From Ignavibacteriota bacterium (lineage in GTDB: Bacteria > Bacteroidota > Ignavibacteria > Ignavibacteriales > Melioribacteraceae), in assembly GCA_013112585.1 (NCBI GenBank), contig JABFGH010000012.1, forward strand, positions 1 through 64,000: a stretch of 64,000 nt of DNA. Reading direction: 5' to 3'. This document shows, one piece after another, positions 40,838 through 50,963 of the stretch. The first letter of the stretch is position 1, and each line of letters starts with the position of its first letter. A program made the position numbers and the translations under genes. The notes under the pieces were generated by a model. It saw only the letters and a program-made list of their open reading frames with translations, was not told the origin of the DNA and ran no database searches.

Positions 40838-41686
40838 ATGATTAAAAGGGTCTTTCCATTTTTAGTTTTATTCATACTTTGTACAACAGTCAACGGGCAG
40901 TGGGCAAGCGAATGGTCAACTTCAAACATATCATCCACAAGTTCTTCGGGATGGTTAAGCTTCCAAAAATCCGGCGATGAATGGAGCAATCGCTTTTATG
41001 AAATAAGCAGTGAAAATTTTAGAATTATGCAGTCGGCATATTCGGGCACGACAATTTATACTTATACTTTTACAGCGCCGGAAGTCCTGGCAGGCAGTCA
41101 AGTATATTCGCTTGGTGCTGATTTAACGGGCGATAATATTACAGAGTTTTATGTGCTGGGATATTACGGTTCAGCGGAGCCGTATCGCCAATCGATGAAA
41201 ATTTTTGACATTACTACCGGCAGCACTCTGTTTGAACGAAATGATGCGGCATACTATTTTACTTACCCTGTAATTTGGGATGTTGATAATGATGGGGTTT
41301 TAGAGTGTACATTTTCGCGCTATGATTATCCAAATTTTGCCGGATACATTTATGAAGTTTATAACACGAACGTAACTACAAATGTAAAATCTGATATTCC
41401 ATTTCAAACAAAATTTACACTTGAACAAAACTATCCTAATCCCTTTAACCCAAGCACAAATATCAATTACAGCGTAGATAATAGAGAGCATGTACTTCTA
41501 AAAATTTATGATGCTAAAGGCGAGCTGGTTAAAACATTAGTCAATAATGAAATGGCTGCAGGCGATTATTCAATTAAGTGGGACGGTACAAATCATAATG
41601 GCTTTAAGGTTTCATCCGGTACTTATTTTTATCAAGTTAAAGCCGGACAATCTATACAAACAAAGAAAATGATAATGATAAAATAG
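40838..41686 (+). CDS. T9SS-exported protein with FG-GAP-like calcium motifs
   Basis: The protein has 282 residues with a signal peptide (1-22). The middle part shows D-L-T-G-D-N-I-T-E-F-Y-V-L and W-D-V-D-N-D-G-V-L-E, the D-x-[DN]-x-[DN]-G pattern of FG-GAP/VCBS calcium-binding repeats. From about 192 the Por/type A sorting domain begins with F-T-L-E-Q-N-Y-P-N-P-F-N-P-S-T and ends G-T-Y-F-Y-Q-V-K..K-K-M-I-M-I-K. This marks export by the type IX system and surface anchoring or release. It is only 34 bp upstream of the PqqD-like gene, so it may be the first gene of that operon. Confidence 0.88.
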   Translation: MIKRVFPFLVLFILCTTVNGQWASEWSTSNISSTSSSGWLSFQKSGDEWSNRFYEISSENFRIMQSAYSGTTIYTYTFTAPEVLAGSQVYSLGADLTGDNITEFYVLGYYGSAEPYRQSMKIFDITTGSTLFERNDAAYYFTYPVIWDVDNDGVLECTFSRYDYPNFAGYIYEVYNTNVTTNVKSDIPFQTKFTLEQNYPNPFNPSTNINYSVDNREHVLLKIYDAKGELVKTLVNNEMAAGDYSIKWDGTNHNGFKVSSGTYFYQVKAGQSIQTKKMIMIK

Positions 41687-41720: not shown

Positions 41721-41975
41721 ATGAGTAAGATAACAATATCATCAAACCTGGCAGTAAGCGACAACGGATTTCTATTTCTGCCGTCAACCGGAGAATCATT
41801 TACGCTGAACCCAATTGGCAAATTAATTCTTACCGCACTCAAGGAAGGAAAAGAACAGAAGCAAGTAATTGATTTGATAACCAAAGAATATGATATAGAC
41901 AAAAGTTCAGCAGAAAAAGATTTGGAAGATTTTATTAGTCAGCTAAAGAATCACAAATTGATAATTGAACAATGA
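41721..41975 (+). CDS. PqqD-like peptide-binding protein
   Basis: The protein has 84 residues with the PqqD pattern: F-L-P-S-T-G-E-S-F-T-L-N-P-I-G-K-L-I-L-T-A-L (19-40), then Q-V-I-D-L-I-T-K-E-Y-D-I and S-A-E-K-D-L-E-D-F-I-S-Q-L. PqqD is the prototype RiPP recognition element that holds a precursor peptide for modifying enzymes. It overlaps the ATP-grasp gene by 4 bp. No radical SAM gene or obvious short precursor is present, so its partner here is probably the ATP-grasp enzyme. Confidence 0.8.
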   Translation: MSKITISSNLAVSDNGFLFLPSTGESFTLNPIGKLILTALKEGKEQKQVIDLITKEYDIDKSSAEKDLEDFISQLKNHKLIIEQ

Positions 41976-43015
41976 AAATTGCAGTAACAGGATTAAATAA
42001 TATTGATAGTCCGGGTCCCGGCGTTCCTGTAATTAGAGGAATAAAAGACTCGAACAATTTTGATGGTGAAATAATCGGATTAATTTACGACTCACTTGAA
42101 CCGGGCGCTTATATGGAAAATGTTGCCATTCGCAGTTATCAAATTCCATATCCCTCCGGCGGGCTTGATGTTTTGTTCGAACGAATAAAAGTTATAAATG
42201 AAAAAGAAAAAATTGATGTAATTATACCAACTCTTGATGCAGAGTTATACGGCTTTGTTAAACTTTCGCCAAGATTGGAGTCACTTGGAATTAAAACTTT
42301 TCTTCCAAGTCAGGATCAGCTTAATGTTAGAGCAAAGGATAAACTGTTTGATTTTTGTAAAGCGAATGGAATTAAAACGCCTAAAAATATTCTCGCAAAT
42401 TCTATCAGCGACCTGCAAAAAATTCCATCTGAAATAAAATACCCCGCCGCCATTAAAGGAATATTTTACGATGCATACATTGTAAATAATTTTGATGAAG
42501 CAGTTGCTGCTTTCGAAAAGATGCGATATAAATGGGGACTGCCGATCATCGTTCAGGAATTTGTAAAAGGAGATGAGTACAATGTTGCCGCACTCGGCGA
42601 TGGTTTAGGCAGCACTATCGGTGCCGTTCCGATGAAGAAGCTCTACATTACCGATAAAGGCAAAGGCTGGGCAGGCGTTACAATTGATGATTCCGTTTTA
42701 ATTAATCTTTCAAAAAAAATAATTGAAAACTTAAAATGGAAAAGCGGTGCAGAGTTAGAGTTTGTAAAAGTGAAAGACTCCAACGAATATTATTTATTAG
42801 AGATTAATCCCCGCTTTCCGGCATGGGTTTATCTTGCAGCCGCCGCTGGGCAAAATCTGCCTTACGCTTTACTGCAATTAGCCAATGGCGAAAAAGTAGA
42901 ACCGTTTGACGAGTATGACGTTGGAAAAATATTTATCCGTTACTCGTGGGATTTAATAACAGACATAAAAAGATTTGAAGAAATTAGTGTAAAAGGAGAA
43001 CTGAATCATGGATAA
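41972..43015 (+). CDS. ATP-grasp ligase
   Basis: The protein has 347 residues. The pre-ATP-grasp domain (1-105) is followed by an ATP-grasp fold with A-A-I-K-G (near 153), the hinge I-V-Q-E-F-V-K-G-D-E-Y and the metal-binding L-L-E-I-N-P-R-F-P (about 285-293), as in CarB-like and amino-acid/peptide ligases. It forms a carboxylate-amine bond at the cost of ATP; substrates are unknown. It overlaps the PqqD-like gene (4 bp) and the decarboxylase gene (8 bp), a strong sign of one functional unit. Confidence 0.9.
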   Translation: MKIAVTGLNNIDSPGPGVPVIRGIKDSNNFDGEIIGLIYDSLEPGAYMENVAIRSYQIPYPSGGLDVLFERIKVINEKEKIDVIIPTLDAELYGFVKLSPRLESLGIKTFLPSQDQLNVRAKDKLFDFCKANGIKTPKNILANSISDLQKIPSEIKYPAAIKGIFYDAYIVNNFDEAVAAFEKMRYKWGLPIIVQEFVKGDEYNVAALGDGLGSTIGAVPMKKLYITDKGKGWAGVTIDDSVLINLSKKIIENLKWKSGAELEFVKVKDSNEYYLLEINPRFPAWVYLAAAAGQNLPYALLQLANGEKVEPFDEYDVGKIFIRYSWDLITDIKRFEEISVKGELNHG

Positions 43016-44369
43016 GAAAATTTATGAAAGACCGTTAATAATAAAACAGCAATCGGGTTTGATGAATAAATTTGGTTCTTCAACTATAAATGCGCCGGTA
43101 ACGGAAATTGACAGAGTACCGGTTAAAGATATCGTTGAAAAATTTGGTTCGCCGGTGTTTGCATTTTCCGAACGCAAAATTAGAAACAATCAGCGGGAGA
43201 TGTTTAGAATTTTCAAAACACGATATCCCAAAGTTCAATTTGCATGGTCGTACAAAACAAATTATATGAATGCTATTTGTTCAATCTTTCATCAAGAAGG
43301 ATCATGGGCGGAAGTAGTATCTGAATTTGAATATGAAAAAGCCCGCCAGCTTGGCGTTGAAGGCGAACATATTATTTTTAATGGTCCGGCTAAAACCGCC
43401 GCGGGATTAGAAAGGGCGATCAAGGAAAGAGCAAAAATTCACATTGATCATTTTGATGAACTTTATTTACTGATTGAGTTAACGGAAAAATTAAACTTAA
43501 CAGCCGATGTGGCAATTCGTGTAAATATGGATGTTGGTATTTATCCAAAGTGGGATCGGTTCGGATTCAACTACGAAAATGGTGAAGCAGATCAGGCATT
43601 AAAAAGAATTGTACTGAATGATAAATTAAATTTGATTGGACTGCATACACACATCGGCACTTACATAATGAGCACCGAGCCATACAAAATAGCTGCAACA
43701 AAGCTCGTAGTTTTAGCTAATAAGCTGAAAGAAAATCATAATATAACTCTTGATTATATTGACATGGGCGGCGGCTTGCCATCAAAAAATACTTTGAAAG
43801 GACAATACCTTGAAGCCGAGCAAATACTTCCGAGCTATGAACAATATGCCGAAGCGATCACCTCTCCCTTTTTTAATTTAACAATGCCGCCGAATGAATT
43901 CCCCACATTAATTATTGAAAGCGGCAGGGCGCTGATAGATGATGCCGGATTTCTTATTAGTTCTGTGATCGCAAATAAAAGATTATCGGATGGAAGAAGA
44001 GCCGTGATAATTGATGCCGGAGTGAATTTGATGTTTACAAGTTTTTGGTTCAAACACAGAGTTGCTCCCGGGCAAAACGCCGGCAGCTTTACAGAAAACT
44101 CATCACTTTACGGACCATTGTGCATGAACATCGACTGCATTAGGGAAGAAATAGTTTTACCTGCTCTTAAAAAAGGTGAGCTTGTTGTAATCATGAATGT
44201 CGGTTCATACAGCGTTACACAATGGATGCAGTTTATTTCTATGCGACCGAACATTGTGTTGGTAACGGAGGAAGAAGAAGCCGTGCTCATCAGAGCAAAT
44301 GAAAATTTAGAATATTTAACATCATTAGAAGTTGTACCGGAAAAACTTAAAACATTCACTCTGCATTAA
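43008..44369 (+). CDS. fold-III PLP-dependent decarboxylase (DapDC/ornithine type)
   Basis: The protein has 453 residues with an N-terminal extension of about 30 residues. PLP lysine: K83 in F-A-W-S-Y-K-T-N-Y. Further motifs are L-H-T-H-I-G-T (like LHCHIGS in diaminopimelate decarboxylases), D-M-G-G-G-L-P-S phosphate loop, E-S-G-R in place of EPGR, G-P-L-C-M-N-I-D and a G-S-Y-S loop. The divergence at these positions indicates a specificity other than DAP. In the operon it follows an ATP-grasp ligase and likely acts on the same intermediate. Confidence 0.88.
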   Translation: MDKKIYERPLIIKQQSGLMNKFGSSTINAPVTEIDRVPVKDIVEKFGSPVFAFSERKIRNNQREMFRIFKTRYPKVQFAWSYKTNYMNAICSIFHQEGSWAEVVSEFEYEKARQLGVEGEHIIFNGPAKTAAGLERAIKERAKIHIDHFDELYLLIELTEKLNLTADVAIRVNMDVGIYPKWDRFGFNYENGEADQALKRIVLNDKLNLIGLHTHIGTYIMSTEPYKIAATKLVVLANKLKENHNITLDYIDMGGGLPSKNTLKGQYLEAEQILPSYEQYAEAITSPFFNLTMPPNEFPTLIIESGRALIDDAGFLISSVIANKRLSDGRRAVIIDAGVNLMFTSFWFKHRVAPGQNAGSFTENSSLYGPLCMNIDCIREEIVLPALKKGELVVIMNVGSYSVTQWMQFISMRPNIVLVTEEEEAVLIRANENLEYLTSLEVVPEKLKTFTLH

Positions 44370-44382
44370 TTTCAAAAATAAA

Positions 44383-46515
44383 ATGTCAAAATCCATTGAT
44401 TCAATATTGTACAGTTATGCACAAATTTTTTTCTCGAACAGAAAATGGTTTGGCGCTATTGCTATGTTCTCAACATTCATCGTTCCGCAAATTGGAATAA
44501 TGGGTTTGGGCGGAGTAATGCTGTCAAACCTACTTGCCTACTTACTAAAGTTTGATAAGGACAAAATTGAAGCGGGCTACTACGGATTTAACGGATTGCT
44601 TTTTGGAGCTTCTGCTGCTTACTTTTTTGAGATCACTCCATTTTTAATTTTTATTATAATTCTCTTTATTATCATCTGTTTTTTTATGTCGGCAGCACTT
44701 GAGCATTTACTTGCTAATCTTTTTAATCTGCCCGGTTTAAGTCTACCATTTATTATTACCCTATACATATTTTTTGTGTTCACAACAAACTACAACACAA
44801 TATTTTTTAAGGGATTAAATTTTGAGGATTATCAATTCCTAAGTTTCATTCCCGATTTTATTAAGATTTATCTTAAATCATTTTCTCTTATTCTCTTTCA
44901 ATCGAGTTTAATTTCCGGTTTCATTCTGGCAGTTGCGGTACTGTTATTTTCACGTGTGCATTTTGTTAACAGCGTATTGGCATTCACGTTCAACTACTTC
45001 TTTGTGAATTTAATTTTCCCGGAGGTCTCAACTGACTTACTGATATTGACTTCCTTCAACTCAATTTTAACAGCCTTTGCCCTGGGCGGAAGTCTTGTTA
45101 TAGTTTCGCGTAAATCTATCTTTTTGATAATTCTTTCCTCTCTGATGATAATTGTTTTTGCGGGATTCTTTTCGAAACTGCTGGTAAATTATTTGCTGCC
45201 GGTACTTGTACTGCCCTTTAACTTTGTTGTGCTTTCAACTATCTACAGTTTAAAGTTTAGAAAAGATCAAACTGATATGGTGCTGCTATACTTTAAGCCC
45301 GGCTCGCCTGAAGAAAATTATTACTATCACGATAACAGAAAGAACAGGTTTGCAAAGTTTAAGTTTGTTTTTCCCGAACTGCCCATTTTTGGTGAATGGA
45401 AAATTTCACAGGGAGTTGATGGGAAAATTACTCATAAAGAATCGTGGAAACATGCCTGGGACTTTGTAATTACTGAGGGCGGCAAGGAATATAAAACTGA
45501 CGGCATGCAGGTAGAAGATTATTATTGCTTTGATACGCCTGTTGTTAGTCCGATGGATGGTGAGGTTGCAAGAGTAATTGATAATGTTGATGATAATAAA
45601 ATTGGCGAGATCAATCATAAACAGAACTGGGGCAACACAATTATTATTGATCATGGTGAAGGATTGTTTTCTTCCTTGTCTCATCTGAAGCTTAACTCCA
45701 TCAAATTTGATAAGGGAGATAGCGTTAAGAAAGGGGAGATAATTGCGCATTGCGGCAACAGCGGTCGATCGCCTCAACCGCATCTGCATTTTCAATTTCA
45801 ACTAACAGATAAACTCGGTGATAAAACTTTTGAATTTCCGATCTCGCATTTTCTAGAAAAAGATGACTCGAAGTTTGTATTAAAATCATTTGATTACCCG
45901 GAAGAAAATACCTTTGTAAGAAATATTGAAACTCATAAAGCGCTTAAAAAGGCATTCGATTTTCAGCTTGGGGATGAATTTATTGTTGAGTATAATTTTA
46001 ACGGTGAGGAGAAAAGTGAAAAGTGGGAAGTTGATGTTGATATGCTGAACAATGTATTTATCCAAACCGATAATGATGCAAAAGTATTTCTCTATCCGCG
46101 TGAAAAAGTTTTTTACTTAACTCATTTTATAGGAAATAAAAAATCAGCACTCTATTATTTTTATCTATCGGCTCTCAGCGTGCCTTTGGGATATCTTGAT
46201 AATTTAGAATGGCAGGATAAATATCCAATTTCCACAACGGTGAATAGTTTTGTAAAATATTTATCGGAGCTGACCTTAATGTTTGCGCCTTCATTAAAAT
46301 CTTATGCAGATTTCAAATTTGAAAAAAGAATTAATGGTTCAAAAAGCTTTATCATTAAAAATCATTTAGTAAATGAAGGAAGGGGATTATATAAACTATT
46401 CGGCGAAGAAGGCAATGGTGAAGTAGAAATTAATTTTGACGGAGAGATAAAATCATTTTCGTTTAAAAAGAAGAATTCAAATATTACTGCCAAAATAAAA
46501 ATTAAAGAGGATTAA
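44383..46515 (+). CDS. urea-transporter-like membrane domain fused to M23 peptidase
   Basis: About 710 residues. Residues 1-300 are hydrophobic with about ten helices and the urea transporter (UT) layout, including the G-Y-Y-G-F-N-G-L-L-F-G-A loop near 65-76. Residues 330-490 are an M23/LytM metallopeptidase: H357-A-W-D360, W-G-N-T-I-I-I-D-H-G, and H467-L-H469. A C-terminal domain of about 220 residues is unassigned. The start ATG 44383 lies 13 bp after the decarboxylase stop; an upstream in-frame start overlaps that gene. It joins a channel-like membrane protein to a peptidoglycan or peptide-cleaving domain in one chain. Confidence 0.85.
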   Translation: MSKSIDSILYSYAQIFFSNRKWFGAIAMFSTFIVPQIGIMGLGGVMLSNLLAYLLKFDKDKIEAGYYGFNGLLFGASAAYFFEITPFLIFIIILFIIICFFMSAALEHLLANLFNLPGLSLPFIITLYIFFVFTTNYNTIFFKGLNFEDYQFLSFIPDFIKIYLKSFSLILFQSSLISGFILAVAVLLFSRVHFVNSVLAFTFNYFFVNLIFPEVSTDLLILTSFNSILTAFALGGSLVIVSRKSIFLIILSSLMIIVFAGFFSKLLVNYLLPVLVLPFNFVVLSTIYSLKFRKDQTDMVLLYFKPGSPEENYYYHDNRKNRFAKFKFVFPELPIFGEWKISQGVDGKITHKESWKHAWDFVITEGGKEYKTDGMQVEDYYCFDTPVVSPMDGEVARVIDNVDDNKIGEINHKQNWGNTIIIDHGEGLFSSLSHLKLNSIKFDKGDSVKKGEIIAHCGNSGRSPQPHLHFQFQLTDKLGDKTFEFPISHFLEKDDSKFVLKSFDYPEENTFVRNIETHKALKKAFDFQLGDEFIVEYNFNGEEKSEKWEVDVDMLNNVFIQTDNDAKVFLYPREKVFYLTHFIGNKKSALYYFYLSALSVPLGYLDNLEWQDKYPISTTVNSFVKYLSELTLMFAPSLKSYADFKFEKRINGSKSFIIKNHLVNEGRGLYKLFGEEGNGEVEINFDGEIKSFSFKKKNSNITAKIKIKED

Positions 46516-46517
46516 AA

Positions 46518-47141
46518 ATGAAATCGAAATTAGTTGTGTTTGTTTTGCTGATGCTGTTTGCAAACTACTCGGCAAATACAATTTTGTCCGATAAAAAATT
46601 AATTGCTTTTCAATCATCAATCTCTGCCGAAAGCAGCGGCAACTATGATAGTGCTATTAAATTTTTAGAAGATATTTATAAAGACTTTAGTGATGACTAC
46701 TTAATCAACTTGCGGCTTGGCTGGCTTAATTATGTTAAAAAGGATTATGATAAGTCAGTTAAGTACTACAACAAAGCAATTAAAATTTGTGATAACTGCA
46801 CGGAAGCCCTGCTGGGGCTTACTTATCCATTAGCCGCTCAAAATAAATGGAGCGATGTTGAAAGTATTTATCAAAAAATACTTGAGAAAGATGAAAATAA
46901 TTATGCGGCAAATTTGAACTTGGGAAAAATAAAGTACAACGAGGCGGCTTACTTAAATGCTAAAATTTATTTAGAAAAAATTTATGAAAATTTTCCAAGC
47001 GATGTGGAGACAAATATTTATTTAGGCTGGACATACTATCAGCTCGGCAACGCTTCAAAGGCTAATCATCATTTTACCGATGCATTAATTAATGATCCGG
47101 ATAACAGCAGCGCATTGGAAGGGATTAACTTAACGAGATGA
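46518..47141 (+). CDS. exported TPR protein
   Basis: The protein has 207 residues with a signal peptide ending near A-N-Y-S-A-N. It has about five tetratricopeptide repeats (for example L-R-L-G-W-L-N-Y-V-K-K-D-Y-D-K-S-V-K-Y-Y-N-K-A and N-I-Y-L-G-W-T-Y-Y-Q-L-G-N-A-S-K-A). It serves as a binding scaffold in the periplasm. GAGG lies before the ATG, and the gene begins 2 bp after the fusion gene and overlaps the next by 4 bp. Confidence 0.85.
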   Translation: MKSKLVVFVLLMLFANYSANTILSDKKLIAFQSSISAESSGNYDSAIKFLEDIYKDFSDDYLINLRLGWLNYVKKDYDKSVKYYNKAIKICDNCTEALLGLTYPLAAQNKWSDVESIYQKILEKDENNYAANLNLGKIKYNEAAYLNAKIYLEKIYENFPSDVETNIYLGWTYYQLGNASKANHHFTDALINDPDNSSALEGINLTR

Positions 47142-47947
47142 TGAAAAAAATCACCAAAATATTTTCTGCCATGATTTTTCTTTCTGTAATTGTAAGCGGA
47201 CAAGTACAGTTTACACCCTCACTCTATTATACTTACGGCAATTACTCAAATCAAAATTATTCAAATAGTTTTGCAGGCTATGTAACCCTTGCTTTTAAAA
47301 ACTCCGACTTTATAACCGGTGCTTTTGAACAGTTACAAATCAATAATGATGAATGGACATATAGCCAAACTATGCTCACCGCCGGTTACACAAAAACAAT
47401 TTTTCCTTTCTATTTCAAGTTCAATTATTCACATGTAATGGGTAAGTTTGATTTTTTACCTTTCCCGTTTTCATATAAAGACTATTTGAATATTTACAAT
47501 GCAAATCTGATTTACAATTACTACTTATTTTATTTGGGGACCTCATTCACATATCAAGATCTAAACGGATTCAAACCTGTGGTTGTAAAACAATTCAAAT
47601 TTAACATTGATTGGATCGCTTCGTCAAAATTTACTTTCTCAGTATCGCCGCTTTACACAACAGTAACCGACGGACGTTCACTAACTTCGGTGTATGCCAA
47701 TCTGAAATATACCCCGGTAAAGATGCTCACAATAACACTTGGAGCAATGGCTGGTAAACGCGCCTACTACTTTGACGAAAATCTTTTAACAATATTCAAT
47801 CAGGATGAGACACAAAAAAAATTGTATGGTGCAAAAGTAGAACTAAATCTTACCAAACAATTTATTCTGCCTGTTGTTTTTCAATACAGCGAGTTCGAAA
47901 CATATAACATTAAGTATTTTACCGCCGGCATCAAGTATAAACTGTAA
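47138..47947 (+). CDS. outer-membrane beta-barrel-like protein
   Basis: The protein has 269 residues, with signal peptide (to about G-Q at 22) and then many aromatic-rich amphipathic strands (F-T-P-S-L-Y-Y-T-Y-G, Y-N-Y-Y-L-F-Y-L-G-T-S-F-T-Y), ending F-T-A-G-I-K-Y-K-L, a typical outer membrane beta signal with an aromatic three residues from the end. The barrel would have about 14 strands. It closes the cluster and its ATG overlaps the TPR stop. It may be the outer membrane exit or receptor for the product of the cluster (inference). Confidence 0.75.
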   Translation: MMKKITKIFSAMIFLSVIVSGQVQFTPSLYYTYGNYSNQNYSNSFAGYVTLAFKNSDFITGAFEQLQINNDEWTYSQTMLTAGYTKTIFPFYFKFNYSHVMGKFDFLPFPFSYKDYLNIYNANLIYNYYLFYLGTSFTYQDLNGFKPVVVKQFKFNIDWIASSKFTFSVSPLYTTVTDGRSLTSVYANLKYTPVKMLTITLGAMAGKRAYYFDENLLTIFNQDETQKKLYGAKVELNLTKQFILPVVFQYSEFETYNIKYFTAGIKYKL

Positions 47948-49207: not shown

Positions 49208-49594
49208 TTATTTCTTTTTCTCCCCATCCAGCTTAAACTGAATTGGAATTGTAACTACAGCCTTTACTATTTCACCATCATTAGTTGCCGGACTAAACTT
49301 TGTCTTGGTCACCGCAGCTTCCGCCGCCTCGTCACAGCCGTAACCAATGCCTTTCAGTATTGATGTTTTAGTAACATTGCCTTTTTCATCAATCGTTGCT
49401 TCAACAAAAACTCTGCCCTGTATGCCGGCAATCTTTGCCTCTTCCGGATAAACAACATTTTTAGCAATTGCCATAATTCCGCCTTCCGGAGACGGCATTA
49501 CATCAGCATCCTTTGTTTGGGCAAATTTGTTATAGTTTAGTGCAAGTACAAATATTATTGAAAACAGTACTGTAATTTTATTTAATGGATTCAT
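49208..49594 (-). CDS. TonB C-terminal domain protein, short
   Basis: The protein has 128 residues with a signal or anchor at the N-terminus (about 5-25) followed almost directly by a TonB C-terminal domain: Y-P-E-E-A-K-I-A-G-I-Q-G-R-V-F-V and the end V-V-T-I-P-I-Q-F-K-L. There is no proline-rich spacer long enough to cross the periplasm, so it is not a classical energy transducer. The domain is closely similar to that of the next gene, indicating duplication. Confidence 0.85.
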   Translation of the reverse strand: MNPLNKITVLFSIIFVLALNYNKFAQTKDADVMPSPEGGIMAIAKNVVYPEEAKIAGIQGRVFVEATIDEKGNVTKTSILKGIGYGCDEAAEAAVTKTKFSPATNDGEIVKAVVTIPIQFKLDGEKKK

Positions 49595-49636
49595 AAAGAA
49601 ATCCCCCCATTTATGTTTATTGAAATAATTAGTTAT

Positions 49637-50488
49637 TTATTGCAGCTTAAATAAAATTGGTATTGTTACTTGAACTTTTACGGGTTTGCCTCTTTGTCTA
49701 CCCGGTTTAAATTTTGATTGCATTACGGCTTCCATCGCAGCTTGATCACATCCGGCACCAATACCCTTGATAACAGATGTCCCTGCAACAAACCCTTTTT
49801 CATCAATTAATGCTTTCACAAAAACTCTTCCTTGTATGCCTGCTCTTTTTGCTATTTCGGGATAACGCACCTTTTCAGCAATTCCCACTATTCCGCCAAT
49901 TGGTTCAGGCATTTCTTCAACGGCTATATAAAAATCTTCTTCATTTAACAGATCATAGTTGGTACTTTTTAATTTAGCTTTTGCAGCAAGAAAAAATTTA
50001 TCTTCTGCAGCAAGTAAATCGGGAAGAAATACTCTCAAACTATCGTTGAAAGTTTCAAAACCTATTTTAAAATCTTTTCTAAAATTAACTGGTTCCCCGA
50101 CTTTCTTTGCGGGTGTGATTTTTTTCTTGCTTAATAAATCACCAATTTTTTCCATCAATTCATTTTCAATAATTTTATTTTCTTCGATGGGTTGTTTAAG
50201 TTTTTTTAATGCAACAACTTTCCCTTTTTCATTTATAAATACTCTAAAATATAGAGCAATTTTATCAGGAAAATTTTTATGACTCTGCTTAACCTCATTG
50301 GCTACGAAGAGAATTTCTGAATTTTCTTTTTTCCAATCATCATTCGTTAATGTGGCGGGATTATCAACCTCATCATCAGTAAAATAGTCCAACTCAGGGT
50401 TATTTAGTATTTCAACTTTATTGCCTTTTTCTTTACAGCCGATAGCTAATAATATTATAGCAATTATTAAAAATAGTTCAAGTTTCAT
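49637..50488 (-). CDS. lipoprotein with TonB C-terminal domain
   Basis: The protein has 283 residues from the ATG at 50488 (GAGG 5-9 nt upstream). The signal M-K-L-E-L-F-L-I-I-A-I-I-L-L-A-I-G-C gives a lipobox with Cys at 18. A middle domain of about 150 residues with F-R-V-F-I-N-E-K-G-K-V-V-A may be a degenerate first TonB-like module; the C-terminal domain has Y-P-E-I-A-K-R-A-G-I-Q-G-R-V-F-V and a G-C-D motif. A lipid-anchored TonB-fold protein is not a normal transducer. Confidence 0.82.
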   Translation of the reverse strand: MKLELFLIIAIILLAIGCKEKGNKVEILNNPELDYFTDDEVDNPATLTNDDWKKENSEILFVANEVKQSHKNFPDKIALYFRVFINEKGKVVALKKLKQPIEENKIIENELMEKIGDLLSKKKITPAKKVGEPVNFRKDFKIGFETFNDSLRVFLPDLLAAEDKFFLAAKAKLKSTNYDLLNEEDFYIAVEEMPEPIGGIVGIAEKVRYPEIAKRAGIQGRVFVKALIDEKGFVAGTSVIKGIGAGCDQAAMEAVMQSKFKPGRQRGKPVKVQVTIPILFKLQ

Positions 50489-50495
50489 AACAACC

Positions 50496-50963
50496 TCATA
50501 GTTTAGCATTAACAATTACCTGGTTTTCCAGTTTTGTATCTACCTCTGCTGCAGGCAGACTGTGATATAGCAATTGAATCATTTGATTCTGCGTATTTAC
50601 TTTTTCAATTGTTGTTTCCAATTTTTGTTTGTACTCATTGTTGCTTGTATAAAAGAATACTGCCACAATAAGTAAAACTGCCGCAGCAGCATAAGCGGCT
50701 ATTGTATAATTCCACTTTCGGAAAAATGAATTGTTCCGTTTCTCACCCACATCCCCCACCGATAAAAGAATTCTTTCCTCAAGCTCGTTCGGCATTTCTT
50801 CAAATGATTCTTGAATAACATTTGTAATTCGGCTGCAGTCCTTAAAATAATCGCGCGCTTCTTCATTATCCGAAAGCTGACTAAACAGCAGTGCTTCTTC
50901 GGCTTTGTTTAACTCGCCGTCAAAGTATTGACTGATTTTAATTTTTAATTCTTCTGTATTCAT
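50496..50963 (-). CDS. probable anti-sigma factor
   Basis: The protein has 155 residues. The N-terminal helical domain (I-S-Q-Y-F-D-G-E-L-N-K-A-E-E, 10-23) is like the zinc anti-sigma family but has only one Cys (C43) and no HxxxC. One membrane helix at about 90-106 (A-A-Y-A-A-A-A-V-L-L-I-V-A-V-F-F-Y) is followed by a short periplasmic coiled coil. It follows the ECF sigma gene on the same strand after a repeat-filled gap and precedes a TonB-domain lipoprotein, which overlaps its upstream signal. Confidence 0.72.
   Translation of the reverse strand: MNTEELKIKISQYFDGELNKAEEALLFSQLSDNEEARDYFKDCSRITNVIQESFEEMPNELEERILLSVGDVGEKRNNSFFRKWNYTIAAYAAAAVLLIVAVFFYTSNNEYKQKLETTIEKVNTQNQMIQLLYHSLPAAEVDTKLENQVIVNAKL

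Follow-up and report, generated by a model that had tools for sequence, protein, structure and literature searches.

Discrete recognition elements of ribosomally synthesized and post-translationally modified peptides (RiPP recognition elements, RREs) in lasso peptide systems read a leader motif of the form [Y/W]xxPx[L/V/I/F/A]; three of them, TbiB1, TfuB1 and PbaB1, have been solved with their leaders, the leader contacts of PbaB1 and LppB have been listed, and LppB D70 forms a hydrogen bond with the leader tyrosine (all in the available part of PMC13381572). On the side of the enzymes, FigC, SbnH, AcsE, MccE and BtrK form one clade with the diaminopimelate (DAP) decarboxylases, and the substrates of these five are citryl conjugates, a modified microcin and carrier-bound glutamate (available part of PMC7857480); carbamoyl-phosphate synthetases (CPSases) group with BtrJ-like ATP-grasp enzymes in one clade (PMC4431377, likewise in its available part). 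Here we compare with these systems a six-gene operon at positions 41721 to 47947 of a 64,000-nucleotide stretch (the window) from an Ignavibacteriota bacterium (assembly GCA_013112585.1, contig JABFGH010000012.1, positions 1 to 64,000 of the forward strand). It encodes a PqqD-like protein, an ATP-grasp ligase, a pyridoxal phosphate (PLP)-dependent decarboxylase, a urea transporter (UT)-fold channel fused to an M23 peptidase, a tetratricopeptide repeat (TPR) protein and a putative outer-membrane barrel. We propose, with a probability of about 0.6, that this is a conserved biosynthetic operon in which RiPP-type recognition serves to assemble enzymes, with the RRE docking a tailed decarboxylase to a partner.

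In this proposal the PqqD-like protein would be a lasso-type RRE with the YxxPx[ILV] tail of the operon's own decarboxylase as its ligand, and it would dock this enzyme to the ATP-grasp ligase or to another partner. The ligase would couple an amino acid to another compound or to a carrier; from this conjugate the decarboxylase would then strip the amino acid's alpha-carboxylate, which would leave an amine-type product. In the envelope, the TPR protein, the outer-membrane protein and the UT-fold channel with its M23 domain would act on the product or on the cell wall. The elements concerned with recognition and chemistry are the following:

41721..41975, plus strand: PqqD-like discrete RRE, 84 amino acids (PqqD PF05402, 1.9e-13, above the gathering score)
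41808-41810 and 41919-41921, plus strand: codons of Asn30 and Asp67 of the PqqD-like protein
41972..43015, plus strand: ATP-grasp ligase of the CPSase-like/PRK12767 type, 347 amino acids (ATPgrasp_Ter PF15632, 6.1e-12; also PF02655)
43008..43076, plus strand: leader-like tail at the N-terminus of the decarboxylase (residues 1-23; YxxPxI at 43023-43040)
43008..44369, plus strand: alanine-racemase-fold PLP decarboxylase, 453 amino acids (Orn/DAP/Arg decarboxylase, PF02784 3.3e-30, PF00278 1.4e-14)

The original prediction had called the first gene product a RiPP-recognition-type protein, and this is borne out by its nearest solved chains, which are lasso RREs (TbiB1 1.3e-10, TfuB1 1.4e-06 and PbaB1 1.1e-04). 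The leader-contact positions were mapped by hand through alignment to the solved RREs, before any residue was counted, and give a pocket of F27, L29, N30, I32, I36, I53, Y57, I59, D67, F71, L75 and L80. N30, the counterpart of LppB N33, is invariant (170/170), and D67 is present in 156 of the 170 PqqD-like sequences. In a set of 115 sequences, position 36 has Ile in 112, position 57 is Tyr or Phe in all 115, F71 is Phe in 104 and L75 is Leu in 109. Judged from its sequence, the protein has the PqqD fold and the residues of a lasso-type leader pocket.

The motif read by lasso-peptide RREs is carried by the N-terminal tail of the decarboxylase, YERPLIIKQQSGLMNKFG in the window, which precedes the part of the enzyme that aligns with solved decarboxylases from residue 31 onwards. 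The tail has the consensus K-x-x-[YF]-E-[RK]-P-x-[IVL]-x-[KR]-x-x-x-G-x-x-N-K-[FY]-G, and [YF]xxPx[ILV] was found in 174 of 174 intact tails (119/119 in an earlier, smaller set of loci); L118 is left out of the tail counts, since a contig end removes its start and its pattern match is accidental. In the 170 aligned sequences, which include the window, P9 occurs 170 times, K21 and G23 169 times each, G17 164 times, Y6 158 times and F6 12 times. Among 1,461 other open reading frames (ORFs) of at least 150 amino acids in the same loci, 15 have the tail pattern within their first 25 residues, and three have it together with the Gly. The LysA-like paralogue of the genome lacks the tail. The short tail by itself had no match in NCBIfam or in the PDB.

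The tail residue at position 6 covaries with position 67 of the PqqD-like protein, which was picked as the equivalent of LppB D70 before looking. Throughout the 170 sequences, a Tyr tail goes with Asp (156) or Asn (2) at position 67 (158/158), and a Phe tail never goes with Asp (12/12; Ser 6, Tyr 5, His 1). In normalised mutual information with average-product correction this pair ranks first of 29,568 pairs (z 25.1), and first of 23,579 when near-invariant columns are removed (z 28.8). On a FastTree tree of the tail-less decarboxylase and the ATP-grasp enzyme the tail residue changes three times, position 67 four times and the joint state four times; therefore each change in the tail coincides with a change at position 67. 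When both columns must be slow (486 pairs), all changes of the slower one are shared in just two pairs, this one and PqqD 75/decarboxylase 148; when one slow column is required, this holds for 111 of 6,233 pairs, mostly via fast partner columns. The rule was fixed in writing with nine named loci and 20 loci were then fetched, eleven of them not named; three were duplicates and two of the nine had no PqqD-like gene near a contig end, leaving 15 that could be tested. All seven named loci among these have a Phe tail and no Asp at position 67 (Tyr 5, Ser 2), and all eight unnamed loci have a Tyr tail with Asp 67. Since the Phe-tail loci come from lineages already known, this agreement is a matter of consistency and does not add many new events.

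Several observations weigh against docking of the tail by the RRE. All switches of the tail and of position 67 fall into one 15-member clade (support 0.986, inner nodes partly weak), so that independent switch events are few. Plain corrected mutual information places the pair 6th of all pairs and 5th with near-invariant columns removed; we read the pairs ranked above it as marks of deep lineage splits. Two pocket positions vary (L29 in 44/115, I32 in 67/115), the spacing from Gly to Tyr in the tail is two residues longer than is usual in lasso leaders, and no natural PqqD fusion was found. Binding of the tail by the RRE, or a complex of the two, is what we infer from the tail motif, the pocket residues and the covariation, and the ATP-grasp enzyme in particular is a conjectural docking partner.

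The second gene product is an ATP-grasp enzyme according to PF15632, PF02655 and its predicted structure (predicted local distance difference test, pLDDT, 89.0), for which 2pn1 is the nearest fold (Z 28.6, root-mean-square deviation, rmsd, 2.4, 286 residues aligned). The fold matches of the model single out no subfamily, and the match to NF009405 (2e-26) is under the cut-off of that family. The nearest solved chain for the decarboxylase is 7kh2, an N-citrylornithine decarboxylase (4.9e-58 over residues 31-431). Identity with FslC was rejected (NF041039 score 226.1 against a cut-off of 500), as was identity with the diaminopimelate decarboxylase LysA (TIGR01048 score 222.6 against 297.9). Because the relatives of the decarboxylase use conjugated or carrier-bound amino acids and the ATP-grasp enzyme is CPSase-like, a type grouped with BtrJ-like enzymes, ligation as the first step and decarboxylation of the conjugate as the second are favoured. 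By this analogy it is plausible that ligase and decarboxylase make an amino-acid-derived product; the conjugate chemistry as such and the export are conjecture. Apparent fusions of the ATP-grasp and decarboxylase genes in L064 and L142 were dropped, as translation shows stop codons between the genes.

The remaining genes of the unit are:

40838..41686, plus strand: type IX secretion system (T9SS)-sorted secreted protein, 282 amino acids, probable first gene of the unit (FlgD_ig 1.8e-14, Por_Secre_tail 1.5e-08)
44383..46515, plus strand: UT-M23 fusion (UT PF03253, 5.2e-47; Peptidase_M23 PF01551, 1.9e-16), with the UT-fold channel at about 44386-45336, the M23 domain at about 45355-45894 and a C-terminal region at 45895-46512
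46518..47141, plus strand: TPR protein with a signal-peptide-like start (TPR_2 2.2e-14)
47138..47947, plus strand: putative outer-membrane barrel, by inference

From the PqqD-like to the barrel-like gene the junctions are a 4-base-pair (bp) overlap, an 8-bp overlap, a 13-bp gap, a 2-bp gap and a 4-bp overlap. The UT-M23 ORF was listed from a TTG at 44332, and the alternative ATG at 44383 is the better start because it lies 13 bp past the end of the decarboxylase gene and the ORF then closes 2 bp ahead of the TPR gene. For the gene at 47138-47947 there was no Pfam family and no convincing NCBIfam match.

The gene set was followed in 175 non-identical decarboxylase loci (L033-L228), 131 of which have at least 2.5 kb of sequence upstream and at least 6.5 kb downstream. 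The PqqD-like and ATP-grasp genes are present in all 131, UT-M23 in 129, the TPR gene in 123 and a barrel or TPR-plus-barrel gene in 122, and misses in these counts may reflect divergence, not absence. The shared order is PqqD-like, ATP-grasp, decarboxylase and UT-M23, followed by the TPR and barrel-type genes in either order. Because its members recur together in these loci, the set is more than a chance arrangement, and the operon of six genes is real, with occurrences across the Bacteroidota. The original prediction, which is partly supported overall, had taken the six genes as one transcription unit, and the confirmed overlaps and gaps together with the conservation of the set in the 131 loci agree with this; the co-occurrence analysis ran against the refutation it had named, that the neighbours are not conserved together. 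Its bounds of 41721 to 47947 hold for the six genes; the unit itself probably starts at 40838, since the T9SS-sorted protein gene lies 34 bp ahead of the PqqD-like gene on the same strand and in 28 of the 175 other loci a homologue lies upstream of the PqqD-like gene, on its strand and within 200 bp of it (one unrelated-looking row, L066, was removed by hand). This gene is therefore probably part of the operon. A scan for promoters and terminators gave no clear excess over shuffled sequences.

Using strict E cut-offs, the decarboxylase was found in 46 of the 294 genomes sampled from the window's class, in 27/296 of the phylum, in 74/395 of a second class within the phylum and in 1/98, 8/128 and 12/29 of three narrower groups, in samples that overlap; the group of 98 is the order of G316, and G316 itself is its one carrier. 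A scan of titled genome contigs returned 209 relatives, and 79 of the best 80 are named as Bacteroidota, Chlorobiota or Ignavibacteria groups, the other one being labelled Desulfobulbaceae, possibly through a binning error. The relatives include the cultured Mucilaginibacter myungsuensis and Hufsiella ginkgonis. Among the matches listed, the UT-M23 protein is present in 19 of 58 genomes of relatives, its own genome counted (in one of the 19 it is in two pieces and in two it is divergent, 31-33% identical), and in the remaining genomes the listed matches span only the M23 or the UT part.

Some loci contain further genes. In five loci of Bacteroidales (L130, L135, L141, L150 and L162) the PqqD-like and ATP-grasp genes are separated by an inserted gene for a secreted-looking protein of about 275 amino acids (HTYTGVSAAYINLP...) whose C-terminus is sorting-like, and L130 and L135 have more secreted-looking proteins after the ATP-grasp gene; together with the T9SS-sorted protein this suggests that in some lineages a secreted protein may belong to the system. 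Just ahead of the PqqD-like gene in Bacteroidia loci (e.g. L151, L138 and L220) signalling genes recur, named by eye as LytTR-type response regulators (27 of the 175 loci), histidine-kinase-like (19) and AraC-like (19) genes, and the divergent loci L070 and L071 have related small secreted-looking proteins (GISLYP...GTFEAAVW) upstream of the operon. Contig G161:C1 (3742376 bases) gave matches of equal score near both ends, at 2574 and 3733990, which are probably redundant ends of a circular assembly and not a duplication. Elsewhere in the window, on the minus strand at 49208-50515, two adjoining proteins have similar ends (PEGG...IQGRVFVEATIDEKG) that look by eye like a TonB C-terminal domain.

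The predicted structure of the UT-M23 protein (pLDDT 90.4) has the UT fold in its first part (3k3f, Z 37.4, rmsd 2.2, 304 residues aligned; also PF03253), and the nearest fold to its M23 part is 7qrl (Z 14.7). The pore residues of dvUT are Gln24 and Glu187, and the pore lining is partly kept in the fusion protein. The pore Gln is kept in the window and in 113 of 164 UT-M23 sequences, and the Glu187 place holds Ala (76), Ser (38) or Leu (33) in 147 of the 164, with Leu in the window. Since this second pore place is changed, urea is not favoured as the cargo and the channel is likely to carry something else. In the M23 part at least 95% of the 164 sequences keep H350, D359, H433, H466 and H468. 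The His that usually serves as the first zinc ligand of M23 peptidases sits four places before the Asp; in the window this place is Lys355, and H350 may replace the displaced ligand. In L110 the decarboxylase is in one reading frame with a UT-M23 protein without about its first 34 residues; this single case, probably a deletion, was not used as evidence.

That no classical precursor peptide is visible, as the original prediction had stated, still stands, with the difference that the lasso-RRE motif was found on the operon's own decarboxylase. A same-strand scan of the loci for small ORFs with a YxxP pattern, the only form sought, revealed by eye no recurrent precursor, and so no separate precursor gene of the kind found in a RiPP cluster; the 31-residue tail, searched in the window's genome with E up to 10, matched only the decarboxylase. 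As a candidate for a free precursor only one ORF stood out, the other rows of the scan being noise-like by eye: L048 (G024:C13) has a coupled 64-amino-acid ORF that begins with TTG and is placed between the genes for the ATP-grasp enzyme and the decarboxylase, from -206 to -14 as counted from the decarboxylase match. Its start repeats the tail (KKYHKPIIEKV...SKYG), the remainder resembles the first 60 decarboxylase residues, and it looks like either a duplicate in tandem or a precursor-like peptide in free form. Searched against 56 genomes, this peptide gave its own match and four weak rows (E 0.002 to 0.08), of which three contain internal stop codons.

These observations bear on two other explanations of the tail. 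It could be leader plus core, with the GxxNK[FY]G block modified or loaded by the ATP-grasp enzyme (e.g. at the near-invariant Lys21), so that the decarboxylase would be its own precursor or carrier. This would account for the second conserved block beyond the RRE motif (K21 169, G23 169 and G17 164 of 170) and for the free duplicate in one genome, and BtrK does work on a carrier-bound amino acid (available part of PMC7857480). However, the tail is attached in every intact decarboxylase seen and lacks a hypervariable core, the free duplicate is confined to one locus, and no leader-peptidase family was found in the six operon proteins (Pfam, NCBIfam); we regard this explanation as unlikely. Less likely again is an enzyme-borne carrier in which the GxxNK[FY]G block, loaded with an amino acid by the ATP-grasp ligase, would be decarboxylated in cis or in trans before release into the envelope; if true, it would be a ribosome-encoded carrier system without a precursor peptide, in which RiPP leader recognition has shifted onto a metabolic enzyme. 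The PqqD-like protein might also serve an unlinked precursor elsewhere in the genome, with the tail as a mere structural arm of the decarboxylase. Peptides are the normal clients of RREs and the covariation is based on few independent changes, but the motif match, the conserved pocket, the residue pair chosen beforehand and the 15 further loci in agreement, together with the failure of both searches described above to find a second tail copy or a recurrent YxxP small ORF, make this very unlikely.

The envelope genes allow yet another explanation, that the operon is mainly a cell-wall system, in which an amine made by decarboxylase and ligase would be attached to peptidoglycan or to an envelope protein and the M23 domain would be a wall editor. 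Amine-modified peptidoglycan occurs in other organisms, the five M23 residues named above are conserved in at least 95% of the sequences and the T9SS-sorted protein adjoins the operon in 28/175 loci; yet the M23 ligand set is non-canonical and Pfam and NCBIfam gave no wall-transferase family in the six operon proteins, which leaves this explanation doubtful. We therefore keep RRE-mediated docking of the tailed decarboxylase as the preferred reading.

The original prediction knew of no described pathway with this gene set, and in the literature searched for the gene combination and for docking or leader-like RREs, which covers few subscription papers, we found no account of this system. The word decarboxylase is absent from the main text of an RRE survey (PMC12710340), and a graspetide survey (PMC8939145) has PqqD twice and urea, M23 and decarboxylase nowhere. 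The gene set is widespread and, it appears, unstudied. If the docking is true, an RRE is no safe marker of a peptide product and the leader code can also be an enzyme-enzyme docking tag. The proposal furthermore provides a testable function for an operon found in 46/294 and 74/395 genomes of the two class samples, cultured isolates included, and the operon points to a small molecule linked with an unusual fusion of channel and peptidase.

The lasso RREs TbiB1, TfuB1 and PbaB1 and the LppB-LppA system, which makes linear polyphosphorylated peptides, have the same PqqD-type RRE pocket as the protein described here, including the counterparts of LppB N33 and D70, and share the ligand motif YxxPx[ILV]. 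Whereas the lasso and LppA systems carry this motif on the precursor peptide, it is located here on the N-terminus of the decarboxylase, and no lasso B2 protease or asparagine-synthetase-like cyclase family was found with Pfam in the six proteins or the tested neighbours. Butirosin biosynthesis (BtrJ, BtrK, BtrI) likewise has a CPSase-clade ATP-grasp enzyme and an alanine-racemase-fold decarboxylase whose substrate is a ligated amino acid; it has the carrier BtrI, which BtrJ loads, whereas the operon proteins show no carrier in Pfam and add an RRE and envelope genes. The rhizoferrin route of FslA/FslC (FigA/FigC) contains the nearest characterised decarboxylase and follows the same order, first conjugation and then decarboxylation, but uses a nonribosomal-peptide-synthetase-independent siderophore (NIS) synthetase, for which Pfam shows no equivalent in the operon. 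Finally, the folds of the urea transporter dvUT and of the M23 peptidoglycan endopeptidases are both matched, in one predicted chain; here the two are fused, with the dvUT Glu187 place altered.

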